Part shown: positions 7,982-45,409 of the stretch, in pieces | Layout of the letters: the number at the start of each line of letters is the position of its first letter | Numbering within the stretch: position 1 is the first letter of the stretch | NCBI GenBank assembly: GCA_001767435.1 | Contig: MEKT01000180.1 | Span: forward strand, 9,389-57,766 | Length of the DNA: 48,378 nt | Source of the DNA: Acidobacteria bacterium RIFCSPLOWO2_02_FULL_65_29 | GTDB lineage: Bacteria > Acidobacteriota > Vicinamibacteria > Vicinamibacterales > CAVVIG01 | Direction of reading: 5' to 3' | The notes under the pieces: generated by a model | What the model saw: the letters and a program-made list of their open reading frames with translations, nothing else | Databases searched by the model: none | What the model was told of the DNA's origin: nothing | Program-made: the position numbers and the translations under genes

Positions 7982-8050
7982 CGCGTCTACCGCCGAGAGC
8001 GCCGAGGAATAGTGAATGGTCCGCTGCGTCCTCTGCGGGGATCGTCGTTG

Positions 8051-10423
8051 ATGGTTGTCGTGCTGCAACGTACTCGTGGTCTCACGCGCGCGGGCGCGCT
8101 CGGGCTCGTCGCCGTTGTCGCGTGCGGAAGAGCGCCCGAGGCGCCTCGTGTCGCTCAGCCGGCCCAGGTAGCGGGCACGCTGGTGGCGGTTGGCCTCGAG
8201 GCGGCGGTCCGCGTCGTGCGCGATCGCTGGGGCGTGGCGCACATCAGGGCCGAGAACCAGAACGATCTGTTCTTCGCGCAAGGATTCATCCAGGCACAGG
8301 ATCGCTTGTTCCAGATGGATCTCTGGCGGCGATCGGTCCAGGGACGGCTGTCGGAAGTGCTCGGCCCGAACTTCATCGAGCGCGACGCCATGACGCGGCG
8401 CGTCCAATATCGCGGCGATCTCGACCAGGAATGGGCGAGCTACGGCCCGCACGCGAGGGCCATCGCGACGGCGTTCACTCGCGGCATCAATGCGTGGATT
8501 CGCGTCGCCAGCGATCCGCCGCCCGAAGAGTTCCGGCTGGCCGGCTGGGCGCCCGAACTGTGGCGGCCCGAGGATCTGCTGAACCGCACCGATGCGTTTC
8601 TGGCGAGCGCCGACGCACAGGCCGAAGTGTTTCGCGCTGGGCTCACGGCCGCGCTCGGCGCGGGGCGCGCCTCCGCGCTCCTCCAACTCCAGGGGGAGCC
8701 GCTCGTGGTGCCCCCCGGCCTCGACTTGGCTGCCATCAGTCCGGTCGTCGGCGACATCTTGCGGCGGGTCGGAACGCCCCCGTTCTTCATGGGGTTGGCC
8801 GCGCCCATGAACGTCCGCCTAGGCGCCGACATCACCGAATCGCAGGTCGGTAGTGTCCGGCCTCAGCCGGACCTTGCGGGTAGTGTCCGGCTTCAGCCGG
8901 ACCATTTCGGCAGCAACGCGTGGGCCGTCGCGCGCGGCGATCGCGGCGCGCCGCTCCTGGCCAGCGACCCGCACACCCCGCTGGCCAATCCTTCCTTGCG
9001 CTATCTCGTGCACCTCGAGGCGCCTGGCTGGCGCGTGATAGGTGCCACCTCGCCGTGGCTGCCCGGCGTGGCCATCGGCCACAACGATCGCGTGGCCTGG
9101 AGCATGACGGCGTCGAGCGCCGACACTCAGGACCTCTACGTCGAGCGCCTGAATCCCAACAATCCGCGCCAGGTGCTCGACCGCGGCCGGTTCGTCGACA
9201 TGGCGGTCGAAACAGACGCTATCGCCGTCAAAGGACGTGCCGAACCGTTCGAGTACGAGCGGTTCTACACCACGCACGGCGTCGTCGTGGCGCTCGATCG
9301 CGAACGACAGCTGGCGTTCACGCTTCGATGGAGCGGCACGGAGCCGGGCGCGGCAGCCGAACTTGGCGCGCTGGCCATCGGTCGCGCCGGATCCGCGGCG
9401 GAGTTTCGACGGGCGCTCGCGGCGTGGAGGATGCCAGCGGCAGAGTTCGTCTACGCAGACGTCGACGGGCACGTCGGCCGTCAGGCGGCCGCGCTTGCGC
9501 CCGTGCGGTCCGGGTGGAACGGCGCGCTGCCCGTGCCGGCGGAAGACGGCCGCTATGAGTGGGGCGGCTGGTTGACGCTCGACGCGCTTCCTCACGAGGA
9601 CGATCCCGGGACCGGACTCGTGGTGTCGGCCAACGACAGCCAAGCGAGGTGGAGCCGCATCGCCGACGTGCTCGCGGCGCCGGGCGCCCGCAGCCTCGAC
9701 GGGTTCAAAACGCTTCAGCACGACGTCGTGTCTTGGAACGCCGGACGGCTCGTCCCGCTGCTCGAACGGGTGAAAGGCGATCGCGAGGACGTTGAAAGGG
9801 CGCGGCTGCGGCTGCTTCGATGGGATCGGCGAGTGACGGTGGACTCCCAGGAGGCTGCGCTCTACGCTCGTTGGGAAGCCCGCTTGCGGCAGGAGTTGGC
9901 GGCCCTTCGTGTTCCAGCCGCGTTGGTCGACGAACATGTTGAACACGGCCGGGCCGTCCTCGTGCCGTCGCTCGTCGGCCCCTCGCGCGCCTGGTTCGAG
10001 GGCAACGTCGCGCGCGCGCGTGACCGCCTGCTCGTGTCCGCTCTCGGAGCCGTGGTCAACATGACGACAGACAACCGCGATCGCGTGGTGACGTTTGCAC
10101 ATCCCCTGGGCGTGTCCGATCCGTCGCGGCGACGGTTCAATGTGGGAGGGTTCGCTCTGCCGGGGTACGACGAAACCGTTCTGTCCGTTCGGGTCGCCGG
10201 ATCGAATCGCGTGATCGGTCCCTCGTTGCGCGTGGTGATGGAGGCGGGCGACTGGGACCGGTCGGTGGCCACCAACGCGCCCGGGCAGTCGGGTTCAGCC
10301 GGCAGCCGGCATTTCAGCGATCTGGCGGAGCCGTGGGTCGGAGGCGAGTACTTCCCGCTGGCGTTCGGTGACGAGGCGATTCGGTCCAACACGGAATCAG
10401 TGTTGATCCTCAGGCCTCGCTGA
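8051..10423 (+). CDS. Penicillin acylase family protein (Ntn hydrolase) with repeat-derived insert
   Basis: This 790-residue precursor belongs to the N-terminal-nucleophile amidases, which cleave themselves into alpha and beta chains and hydrolyse amides such as acyl-homoserine lactones, beta-lactams or acylated peptides. The start at ATG 8051 gives a lipoprotein-like signal ending VAVVACG. The alpha chain contains WGVAHIRAENQNDLFFAQGFIQAQDRLFQMDLWRR (quoted here only as WGVAHIRAENQNDLFF). The beta chain begins at Ser288 in FGSNAWAV. Supporting residues are DPHTPLANPS and the later Asn in VVNMTTDNRDRV. Directly before Ser288 two hairpin repeats encode SVRPQPD and SVRLQPD in frame, in the spacer peptide. 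Confidence 0.9.
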   Translation: MVVVLQRTRGLTRAGALGLVAVVACGRAPEAPRVAQPAQVAGTLVAVGLEAAVRVVRDRWGVAHIRAENQNDLFFAQGFIQAQDRLFQMDLWRRSVQGRLSEVLGPNFIERDAMTRRVQYRGDLDQEWASYGPHARAIATAFTRGINAWIRVASDPPPEEFRLAGWAPELWRPEDLLNRTDAFLASADAQAEVFRAGLTAALGAGRASALLQLQGEPLVVPPGLDLAAISPVVGDILRRVGTPPFFMGLAAPMNVRLGADITESQVGSVRPQPDLAGSVRLQPDHFGSNAWAVARGDRGAPLLASDPHTPLANPSLRYLVHLEAPGWRVIGATSPWLPGVAIGHNDRVAWSMTASSADTQDLYVERLNPNNPRQVLDRGRFVDMAVETDAIAVKGRAEPFEYERFYTTHGVVVALDRERQLAFTLRWSGTEPGAAAELGALAIGRAGSAAEFRRALAAWRMPAAEFVYADVDGHVGRQAAALAPVRSGWNGALPVPAEDGRYEWGGWLTLDALPHEDDPGTGLVVSANDSQARWSRIADVLAAPGARSLDGFKTLQHDVVSWNAGRLVPLLERVKGDREDVERARLRLLRWDRRVTVDSQEAALYARWEARLRQELAALRVPAALVDEHVEHGRAVLVPSLVGPSRAWFEGNVARARDRLLVSALGAVVNMTTDNRDRVVTFAHPLGVSDPSRRRFNVGGFALPGYDETVLSVRVAGSNRVIGPSLRVVMEAGDWDRSVATNAPGQSGSAGSRHFSDLAEPWVGGEYFPLAFGDEAIRSNTESVLILRPR
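8850..8903. repeat. Two hairpin repeats (family P1) inside the acylase gene
   Basis: Two copies of GTAG-TGTCCGGC-YTCA-GCCGGAC occur at 8850-8873 and 8880-8903. The same hairpin is found outside genes at 22108-22133 in opposite orientation, next to a variant (GTCCGCCTTTAGGCGGAC) at 22085-22102. The inserts keep the reading frame. Confidence 0.85.
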
Positions 10424-14886: not shown

Positions 14887-15166
14887 CAGCTGACAGTCAA
14901 CAGTTAACAGTCGACAGTCCGTCGGCCCGAGTCCCAAGCCCCGAACACGACAATCACCGCATCCCTCGACAGGCTCGGGATGCCCTGAGCTTGTCGAAGG
15001 GCAGAGACCGCAGAGATCGCAGAGAAATTCTTGTACAACCCTCGCGTCCCGAGTCCCCACCTCCGCTCGCCTGATCGTTGCGAGCTACGGCGGGCAGGCC
15101 CAGCCCCAAGCCCTCCGGTCTTTGCCCAGTGTGCCCTCTGCCCTCTGCCCTCTGCCCTCTGCCCTC
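14887..15166. repeat. Composite gap: four short-period arrays and a hairpin repeat
   Basis: In order: CAGCTGA CAGTCAA CAGTTAA-type heptamers (14887-14921); GCCCGAG TCCCAAG CCCCGAA heptamers (14925-14945); a pair of P3 palindromes (14963-14980 and 14981-15002, the latter TGCCCTGAGCTTGTCGAAGG); a 9-nt array GCAGAGACC GCAGAGATC GCAGAGAAA (15002-15027); and five TGCCCTC heptamers (about 15131-15166). No gene is visible in the 293-base gap. Confidence 0.8.
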
Positions 15167-15168
15167 TG

Positions 15169-16086
15169 CTAATTCACCCTGTGGCAATGGTAACAGCCGA
15201 TCGCGAAACGCGTACGGTTGTATTCGTAGCTTCGCGTGAAATCGTACGGGGGGCGATGGAGCAGCCGCGCCATGCCCGGCACGACGACCTCGCGCATGTA
15301 CGCCGCTTTGGCCTGCTTGTCGGATTCGGCCAGATAGCCGTACAACGCGTTGCGCATCTGGGCATCCATGCCCACGCCGGCGCCGTAGCCGTCCCATCCG
15401 ATCTGCCGGAACTGGGGCTCGGGGAGGCGCCCGACTGACGGCATCCGCCAGTCGCGCGACGGCGCACCGGTGCCGTGGCACGTCGCGCAAGTGACGCGAT
15501 CCTCGCCGCCCGCGACAGGCGCCAGCGCGCGGCGCGCCCACGGCATCACCGCGGTCTCCATGAACTGCACGATCGCTTCGCGGTCGCGTTTCCGCCCCGC
15601 CGGGTAAATCGCATCGTCGGCGGGATACGAGATGGCTTCGACATCGCCGCCGAAGGTGATCGCCGCGGCCAATAGCGCGACTGGCGCCGCCGCCAGCATG
15701 GCCACGCCGTTGCGAAGACCGCGATCGACACGCTGGGGCTCCCACCGCAGCGCCTCCCGCACGGCGACGTCGTCGATGGACGCGCGCGGATCGGTGGCGA
15801 GCAGCTCGAGCAAGGCCGCAAGCTGCGCGCCTCGGCGCACCCCCCGCAGCACCAGCGGCGAGGAGCGAGATCCGCGCCGTTCAATGTTCAGCGTTGACGT
15901 GCCGGCGGCGCGATCGAGCCAGGATTCGGACCGATGAATCTCCGACATGTCCTGAAGCGCGATTTCGTCGGAACGCTCGTCGTCGATGACGACGAGGCGC
16001 ATGTCGGTGAGGACGTAGCGCCGCCAAGGGGCAATCCAGGCACGCGCGCTCCAGAGCTGTCGTTCCCAGGGAAGGGGGACGTCCAC
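15169..16086 (-). CDS. PH-domain protein fused to a di-haem cytochrome c-like region
   Basis: The GTG at 16086 lies one base past the LemA stop and gives 305 residues. The N-terminal part (WRRYVLTDMRLVVIDDERSD, IALQDMSEIHRSESWLDRAAG, STLNIERRG) matches a bacterial PH (bPH_2/DUF304-type) domain. A single membrane helix follows (NGVAMLAAAPVALLAAAITF). The C-terminal half has a haem motif CATCHGTG, a methionine-rich stretch, and a second motif CYHCH three residues before the end. The arrangement suggests a membrane-anchored periplasmic cytochrome with a PH domain on the other side, coupled to LemA. Function unknown. Confidence 0.75.
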   Translation of the reverse strand: MDVPLPWERQLWSARAWIAPWRRYVLTDMRLVVIDDERSDEIALQDMSEIHRSESWLDRAAGTSTLNIERRGSRSSPLVLRGVRRGAQLAALLELLATDPRASIDDVAVREALRWEPQRVDRGLRNGVAMLAAAPVALLAAAITFGGDVEAISYPADDAIYPAGRKRDREAIVQFMETAVMPWARRALAPVAGGEDRVTCATCHGTGAPSRDWRMPSVGRLPEPQFRQIGWDGYGAGVGMDAQMRNALYGYLAESDKQAKAAYMREVVVPGMARLLHRPPYDFTRSYEYNRTRFAIGCYHCHRVN

Positions 16087-17720: not shown

Positions 17721-18083
17721 CCACGACGATCAACGCGGAGACCGACGAGCGCGCAGAGAGACAGTCCAAAGGCAACCACGAAGTCACGAAGTCACGAAGA
17801 AGACCACGACTGGAAAGACAGCTGCGTCACGACGATCAGCGCAGAGACCGCGGAGTCCGCAGAGAGACAGTCCACAGGCAACCACGAAGACGTGAAGGCA
17901 CGAAAAGATCCGGACACTGCGCTCGACGCAGAGGCCGCGGAACACGCAGAGACAGGACTGTCACAACGGCGGGAGCCGACCCTTCGACGAAGCTCAGGGT
18001 CGACCTGAGCATGTCGAAGGTCGAGGCGTCAGCGTCAGAACGCGCTGGGAGTGGGGCCCCAGCGCCAGTGCAAGAAACGCTGA
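17721..18083. repeat. Repeat-filled gap including copy 1 of a 117-bp interspersed repeat
   Basis: The gap holds three CACGAAGT-type 8-mers (about 17779-17803), a 9-nt array GCAGAGACC GCGGAGTCC GCAGAGAGA (about 17839-17866), and a block at 17968-18084 nearly identical to 45294-45409. That block contains a P3 hairpin (CCTTCGACGAAGCTCAGG), its near mirror, and a P4 palindrome (CTGGGAGTGGGGCCCCAG). The block extends into the 3' end of the LigD-like gene. No intact gene is visible. Confidence 0.85.
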
Positions 18084-22016: not shown

Positions 22017-22082
22017 AGACGCGTCGCCTTCAGCTCTCAGCGTCTGTGAAGAAATCGCGGCCCGTCACTCGTTGGATGCGTC

Positions 22083-22133
22083 GTGTCCGCCTTTAGGCGG
22101 ACCGTGAAGTCCGGCTGAAGCCGGACACTACGT
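22083..22133. repeat. Intergenic hairpin pair (family P1)
   Basis: GTCCGCCTTTAGGCGGAC (22085-22102) and GTCCGGCTGAAGCCGGAC plus ACTAC (22110-22132). The stems differ but are both fully paired, and loop tetramers are TTTA and TGAA. A heptamer stretch (GCTGATG GCTGATA GCCGAGG) follows at 22181-22201, leading to the TTG start of the ATP-grasp gene. Confidence 0.8.
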
Positions 22134-22206
22134 CGATTTGTCGCGGCTCTCGGATCAACCAGACGGCCGAGAGCTTCAGAGCTGATGGCTGATAGCCGAG
22201 GATTTC

Positions 22207-23867: not shown

Positions 23868-23954
23868 CAGCTCTCAGCCGTCAGCCATCAGCTTTCGGCC
23901 TTCAACTGGAGCGCTGACGAGCTGATAGCCGATAGCTGACAGCTGATAGCCGAA
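23868..23954. repeat. Heptamer array after YggX
   Basis: CAGCTCT CAGCCGT CAGCCAT CAGCTTT, then AGCTGAT AGCCGAT AGCTGAC AGCTGAT AGCCGAA. The second part is close to the reverse complement of the first, so it could fold as a long imperfect hairpin and might terminate transcription. Confidence 0.75.
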
Positions 23955-26472: not shown

Positions 26473-26566
26473 AGCTGTCGGCCATCGGCTTTCAGCTGTC
26501 AGCTCCGAAGCCGGCCGTGAGGCTTGAAGCCGAAAGCTGATGGCTGAGAGCTGATGGCTGAGAGCT
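26473..26566. repeat. Heptamer array between convergent genes
   Basis: Words AGCTGTC GGCCATC GGCTTTC AGCTGTC AGCTCCG AAGCCGG, then AAGCTGAT GGCTGAG AGCTGAT GGCTGAG AGCTTTA. The two halves are roughly reverse-complementary and could act as a bidirectional terminator, though this is inference. The word matches the arrays at 23868-23954 and 22181-22201. Confidence 0.75.
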
Positions 26567-28862: not shown

Positions 28863-29276
28863 ATGTTCTTCACCCTCAACGCGGCAAACGCCGGACCGTC
28901 GCTGCGCATCCGATGAAGCGGCTGCTGGACGTGTTGCGAGAGGACTGCGGCTGACGGGCACCAAGGAAGGGTGCGGCGAAGGCGAGTGCGGCGCCTGTAC
29001 GGTGCTCATCGACGGCGCGCCGGTCAACAGTTGTCTGGTGCCGTTCGCGCACGTCGACCGAACACGGATCGAAACCATCGAAGGCCTGGGCGGCGGCCAT
29101 CCGCCGCAGCAGGCGTTTGTCGAGCACGGCGGCGCTCAGTGCGGCATCTGCACGCCGGGCATGATCATGGCCGCCGTGGCGCTCGGTCCAGGGCCGTCGC
29201 TCGCCGAGATGCGGACGGGCCTGGCGGGAAATCTGTGCCGCTGCACCGGGTACTCGGCGATCTATCGATCGATCCA
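28863..29276 (+). pseudogene. Xanthine dehydrogenase small (2Fe-2S) subunit, two frameshifts
   Basis: The three frames together spell a CoxS/XdhC-type subunit. ATG 28863 opens MFFTLNA; a one-base loss then gives KRRTVAAHPMKRLLDVLRED; a second one-base loss near 28945 gives LRLTGTKEGCGEGECGACTV and the rest. Both [2Fe-2S] motifs survive (GCGEGECGAC and C...CGICTPGM...NLCRCTGY). The long open frame hides the breaks because its first 40 codons are non-native. It ends in a heptamer array instead of its own stop. It is either a pseudogene or two single-base assembly errors. Confidence 0.8.
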
Positions 29277-29345
29277 AAGGGCAAAGGGCAAAGGGCAGAG
29301 GGCAGAGGGCATAGAGCGAAGGGCGAAGGGCAAAGGGCAAAGGGA
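29277..29345. repeat. Heptamer array at a gene-fragment junction
   Basis: AGGGCAA AGGGCAG AGGGCAG AGGGCAT AGAGCGA AGGGCGA AGGGCAA AGGGCAA. It sits exactly between the end of the 2Fe-2S domain and the surviving C-terminal part of the FAD subunit. The complementary word TGCCCTC occurs at 15131-15166. Confidence 0.85.
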
Positions 29346-45293: not shown

Positions 45294-45409
45294 GGCGGGA
45301 GCCGACCCTTCGACGAAGCTCAGGGTCGACCTGAGCATGTCGAAGGTCGAGGCATCATCGTCAGAACGCGCCGGGGGTGGGGCCCCGGCGCCAGTGTAAG
45401 AATGTTGAC
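45294..45409. repeat. 117-bp interspersed repeat, copy 2
   Basis: This block matches 17968-18084 at all but about ten positions, including a P3 hairpin pair (CCTTCGACGAAGCTCAGG, then CCTGAGCATGTCGAAGG) and a P4 palindrome (CCGGGGGTGGGGCCCCGG). Where the central palindrome differs from copy 1, both sides of the stem differ together (A/T to G/C pairs). It ends 9 bases before the intact kinase ATG. Confidence 0.9.

Follow-up and report, generated by a model that had tools for sequence, protein, structure and literature searches.

Repeat units ahead of a predicted acylase nucleophile

The stretch of DNA that we analyzed (48,378 nucleotides of an Acidobacteria contig, referred to here as the window) carries a gene of the penicillin acylase family in which two short palindromic units, copies of a REP element, lie in frame directly upstream of the codon for the predicted nucleophile. 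The features are as follows:

8051..10423, forward strand: penicillin-acylase-family gene, 790 amino acids from the ATG at 8051; the reading frame is open from a GTG at 8012
8850..8872, forward strand: REP copy 1, encoding GSVRPQPD (residues 267 to 274), with 1 mismatch to the consensus
8880..8902, forward strand: REP copy 2, encoding GSVRLQPD (residues 277 to 284), with 0 mismatches to the consensus
8912..8914, forward strand: codon of Ser288, the predicted nucleophile and beta-chain N terminus, based on solved beta chains and near invariance in 36 homologues

The open reading frame at 8012 to 10423 on the forward strand (803 amino acids) matched the Pfam family PF01804 (Penicil_amidase) over residues 66 to 791 (E value = 3.2e-166), and the best solved relative of its product was the D-succinylase of PDB entry 7eby (E value = 1.8e-106; Foldseek TM = 0.85). 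The serine at position 301 from the GTG, or 288 from the ATG, aligned with the first residue of the solved beta chains of related acylases and was almost invariant in an alignment of 36 homologues. The PF01804 domain contains this Ser after a Gly as well as the catalytic Asn (S288 and N528), the gene keeps an open frame together with GSN, DPH, and GHN, and codon use is coding-like on either side of the insert. These observations indicate an intact penicillin-acylase-family gene with Ser288 as its predicted self-cleavage site. The gene shares with penicillin and cephalosporin acylases and D-succinylase, which are Ntn hydrolases, a common fold, the Gly-Ser nucleophile, the Asn, and a variable spacer ahead of the Ser, but its spacer additionally holds mobile repeat units; we found no earlier case of such units in an Ntn acylase spacer in the literature searched.

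The two copies are 23-nt palindromes placed head-to-tail and 30 nt apart, and the 30-nt units are identical at 25 of 30 positions. Read in frame, they encode GSVRPQPD-LA-GSVRLQPD-HF-GS, copy 1 already showing a change from L to P, and the second unit is followed by H285, F286, G287, and S288. The repeat insert that the first-pass annotation had placed in the spacer, just ahead of the predicted nucleophile, is confirmed; two residues plus Gly separate the end of the repeat from Ser288. When up to 3 mismatches were allowed, the 23-mer had 3 matches in the window compared with a mean of 0.00 in 100 dinucleotide shuffles, and a chance palindrome was ruled out by zero controls for the shuffled window, the window's own genome, and its relatives. 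Both units folded as hairpins (−13.7 and −13.4 kcal/mol; z = −3.2 and −2.7) with a 7-bp stem, GTCCGGC/GCCGGAC, in keeping with the stems of about 6 to 13 bp and short loops of GTAG REPs. The 6 nt on the 3′ side of the repeat were also considered as part of the element; they vary among copies, and their inclusion was unsupported. In an AlphaFold2 model of the acylase built with 36 sequences (pLDDT, 88.9; pTM, 0.89), residues 260 to 285, which include both units, formed the only long internal stretch with a pLDDT below 50. This low confidence supports flexibility of the stretch, but a thinly aligned insert could also lower the pLDDT.

A GTAG-tagged repeat family and its likely transposase

Both window copies open with GTAG. 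The window's own genome (5.5 Mb in 239 contigs, 97% complete, with gaps possible) contains 19 perfect 23-mers, the core sequence at 43 places, and 73 matches to the 23-mer at up to 3 mismatches (41 and 32 by strand, some copies matching on both; control, 0). At up to 1 mismatch, the 23-mer was present in 28 of 60 relatives, with a maximum of 396 matches in one genome of another genus (G013) and control counts of 0 throughout. The family includes a second repeat type, TCCGCC/GGCGGA, which the window contains in the following feature:

22080..22131, no single strand: inverted pair of the element, with 22080-22102 on the forward strand (TCCGCC type) and 22109-22131 on the reverse strand (TCCGGC type)

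This pair (locus L021) folded as one hairpin (−35.6 kcal/mol, z = −5.9) and was judged by a simple codon-usage test to lie outside genes. Inverted pairs are present at sites in the own genome, whereas the acylase pair is head-to-tail, the rarer pair type among GTAG REPs in the excerpts of Di Nocera et al. 2013 (PMC3733652, cited from excerpts throughout).

Copies adjoined a Y1_Tnp gene in 6 of 20 regions fetched from relatives (G013, G021, G023, G010, G012, and G038) and flanked it on both sides in 5 of these 6; the other 14 regions were free of copies. Because copies adjoin a Y1-type transposase gene in six relatives, we classify the element, by its sequence, as a GTAG-tagged REP with a REP-associated Y1 transposase (RAYT), a mobilizer known from relatives alone, in an arrangement of the class described in PMC3733652. 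Searches of the 97% complete own genome for a RAYT or other PF01797 protein, or for a match to the G023 RAYT, found none, which may mean that the copies there are orphans or that the RAYT gene falls in an assembly gap. According to the excerpts of PMC3733652, GTAG REPs do not require a RAYT in every genome.

The element has in common with the GTAG REPs of PMC3733652 the GTAG end, a short GC-rich palindrome, high copy number, inverted pairs, a RAYT beside copies, and some in-frame copies within genes, repair genes included. The excerpts place those REPs in Proteobacteria, Cyanobacteria, Chloroflexi, and the PVC group, and Acidobacteria are not among the groups named there; Acidobacteriota would thus join the phyla with GTAG REPs. 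Rickettsia palindromic elements (RPE) are likewise in-frame palindromic inserts in seemingly functional proteins, but intragenic RPE-4 and RPE-6 belong to a CGTC-tagged group without a known transposase, in contrast to the GTAG tag and RAYT of the acidobacterial element, in which a CGTC tag and RPE-1 type sequence were absent. Repeats of another kind, with a CnGA foot, are reported for Solibacter in the part of PMC6006769 consulted. No description of the element was found in the literature searched, where PMC3733652 covers the class and from which subscription papers were mostly missing, and the absence is therefore weak evidence that the element is new; the same search returned no paper on the peptide VRLKPDTT.

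Copies within genes and interdomain linkers

At up to 2 mismatches, the own genome yielded 62 copies in 51 loci. By a simple test of codon usage, 36 of these copies fell outside genes altogether, 15 fell within 12 genes (3 of them weak calls, L016, L031, and L033), and 11 were at gene edges or just outside; because the loci had been selected by matches to the first repeat type, the second is undersampled. In 20 stretches from G013, 50 of 84 copies were in no gene and 7 were inside genes. Four of the six reading frames of the element are without a stop, and 21 of the 22 internal copies lie in these open frames, the remaining copy being in a closed frame with a mutated stop. Use of the open frames would therefore lengthen the protein instead of breaking the gene. 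The internal copies are read as VRLKPDTT (8), SVRLQPD (5), PAxAGHY (4), VVSGFSRT (4), and one other; a single preferred frame was rejected, since none of the four open frames was clearly favored.

Pfam searches with 10 copy-bearing genes placed the copy in MutL at residues 392 to 400, in the gap between one domain that stops at 342 and another that begins at 416; those in LigD at 358 to 390, between domain limits at 340 and 436; and the copy in a biotin-carrier protein ahead of its domain. Insertion is not confined to linkers, since the copy in an aminoacyl-tRNA synthetase fell inside a domain match. The 27 genomes of the family were searched for MutL and LigD, and the genes retrieved were screened for the element. 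For MutL, 5 of 30 loci (some genomes contributing two fragments) held 6 copies, all of them in the linker at query positions 385 to 416. Because these copies are forward in G023, G006, and G013 and reverse in the own genome and G026, the MutL linker was hit more than once. For LigD, 9 copies were counted in 3 of 25 loci, and 8 of the 9 were in the linker; the other, at query position 557 with 4 mismatches, is inside a domain and probably a chance match. Control matches were zero in the MutL, LigD, and acylase-clade sets. Probabilities calculated from the copies were given no weight, since they assume that copies are independent and apply limits set once the data were known. The carriers of linker copies belong to several genera (L025 for MutL, L078 for LigD, and the orthologues L257, L260, L262, L275, L288, and L305), and repair genes have previously been named as REP carriers (PMC3733652). 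Same-site insertion is described there for recB of two Xanthomonas, compared with three genes across genera for the acidobacterial element. Intragenic REPs are thus already known, and what is new is an acidobacterial member that clearly recurs in the same linkers.

Among acylases, 5 of 20 genes of the window gene's clade held 9 copies, 6 of which were in the spacer of 4 genes, and the element was absent from all 20 acylase genes outside the clade (the scan covered 41 genes, with 20 from the clade, one clade duplicate, and 20 others). Measured from a fixed anchor up to the nucleophile, the spacers of 24 aligned genes were 26 to 81 residues long, and the majority of orthologues had a variable spacer without the repeat. 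Repeat-free spacers in orthologues had been named as the outcome that would refute the earlier reading; their presence marks the repeat as an insertion but has no bearing on whether it is discarded. No empty-site genome of the window's genus was seen. The G013 orthologue (L037, the same gene as L137) contains one perfect copy in the same frame, and in both genes the repeat is followed by 6 nt and then by GGCAGC, the Gly-Ser codons. In a tree built without the spacer, in which some nodes were weak, the two genes were not sisters. The shared offset reflects either an old insertion lost several times or one point that was hit twice.

Within the clade, 5 of 19 genes, including the window gene, keep both the GSN motif and the catalytic Asn, and 14 lack both. 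Ten of these 14 also lack most of residues 545 to 690, although one of the ten (L074) may run off its contig. The genes without GSN and Asn (L038 to L041 and L065 to L074, all from the same bacterial family) are, judging from their sequences, likely noncatalytic homologues. One of them, L073 of G026, has no nucleophile Ser and holds four copies, with copies in the former spacer and one in the opposite orientation. A short Ser-less gene lies within a few kilobases of a second acylase homologue on one contig in each of five genomes (G010:C325, G009:C758, G014:C54, G017:C210, and G025:C264), as if the two were kept as a pair.

Origin and fate of the insert

Taken together, the observations very probably reflect RAYT-driven insertion of a REP into the acylase spacer, tolerated through an open frame and low constraint, with the insert probably lost along with the spacer. 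In this reading, a RAYT would have multiplied a GTAG-tagged REP of Vicinamibacteria, which inserted in frame between the alpha and beta parts of the acylase precursor and is now a tandem pair there. With stop-free frames, each unit would add about ten hydrophilic residues and leave the gene unbroken, and the insert would survive because the stretch is flexible and little constrained, as are the interdomain linkers of MutL and LigD. We infer that the insert arrived by transposition and has survived because constraint is low. Several points count against this reading: no RAYT was found in the own genome, the offset shared by the window and G013 genes is disfavored under simple random insertion, no empty site was seen within the genus, and the low pLDDT may stem from thin alignment of the insert.

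That equal offset in two non-sister lines would be expected if one unit had entered a common ancestor of the acylases and been lost or worn in most lines, with the window copy doubling later. By eye, the same register can be followed in the spacers of L036 (ARAWPDQTGS) and L041 (TRLQPGRIGS), but their DNA matched the repeat at only 14 and 13 of 26 positions, not above background. An unselected old copy should moreover have decayed, whereas the window and G013 genes share a perfect 23-mer at 55 to 58% protein identity, and the reversed copy in L073 also speaks against common descent; we consider such an old insertion rather doubtful. The same frame and 6-nt offset could instead mean that the peptide is functional, setting spacer length or local structure and hence the rate of self-cleavage, and being kept for that. 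Shortened-spacer mutants of cephalosporin acylase and of MacQ have been studied, the MacQ one uncleaved, as far as the titles of the PDB entries tell. A functional peptide is nevertheless improbable, given its absence from orthologues that keep Ser and Asn (L036, L044, and L064), the equal presence of the element in linkers of unrelated proteins, and the L-to-P change in copy 1. Insertion as part of the decay of the gene would fit the frequent loss of GSN and Asn in the clade and the four copies in the Ser-less L073; the motifs, open frame, and flanking codon use of the window gene make it highly improbable here. A broader reading, which we consider unlikely, is that linkers needing length but no particular sequence, such as Ntn spacers and the interdomain linkers of MutL and LigD, serve throughout Vicinamibacteria as permanent targets of a single RAYT-driven element. 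The element would then have become a steady supplier of peptide to such linkers, and in the acylase it would also tune spacer length and self-cleavage.

Under RAYT-driven insertion, the insert would probably be excised together with the spacer at maturation. Characterized acylases remove their spacers after the cut before the Ser (54 residues in Escherichia coli, 37 in A. faecalis, and 9 in T. thermophilus, according to excerpts of PMC3461476), so removal of at least part of the window insert is likely; when the E. coli enzyme was produced in P. pastoris, part of the spacer was retained on some alpha chains (PMC2845550, in excerpt). The first-pass annotation had proposed that the insert may be discarded, which would explain its tolerance, or may alter processing. 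Removal does appear likely, but it is not needed for tolerance, because MutL and LigD, in linkers that are not excised, and Ser-less homologues such as L073 keep the repeat peptide.

With a likely mobilizer, a presence in many genera, and repeated insertion into the same linkers, this single element offers a naturally run test of where proteins can take up a foreign peptide. For Ntn enzymes, it supplies spacers that differ in nature by having no, one, or two added units next to the cleavage site. For annotation, VRLKPDTT, SVRLQPD, VVSGFSRT, and PAKAGHY in acidobacterial proteins should be read as mobile DNA and not as domains.

The window contains other repeats as well. A 109-nt direct repeat occurs at 17968-18076 and 45294-45402 (94% identical, 27 kb apart), and a 77-nt repeat pair lies at 17722-17904. 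Units of 7 nt of the GCCCTCT kind are found at 15132-15169 and 29275-29344, and 14-nt units of the AGCTGATGGCTGAT kind are found at 22178, 23918-23950, and 26533-26565.
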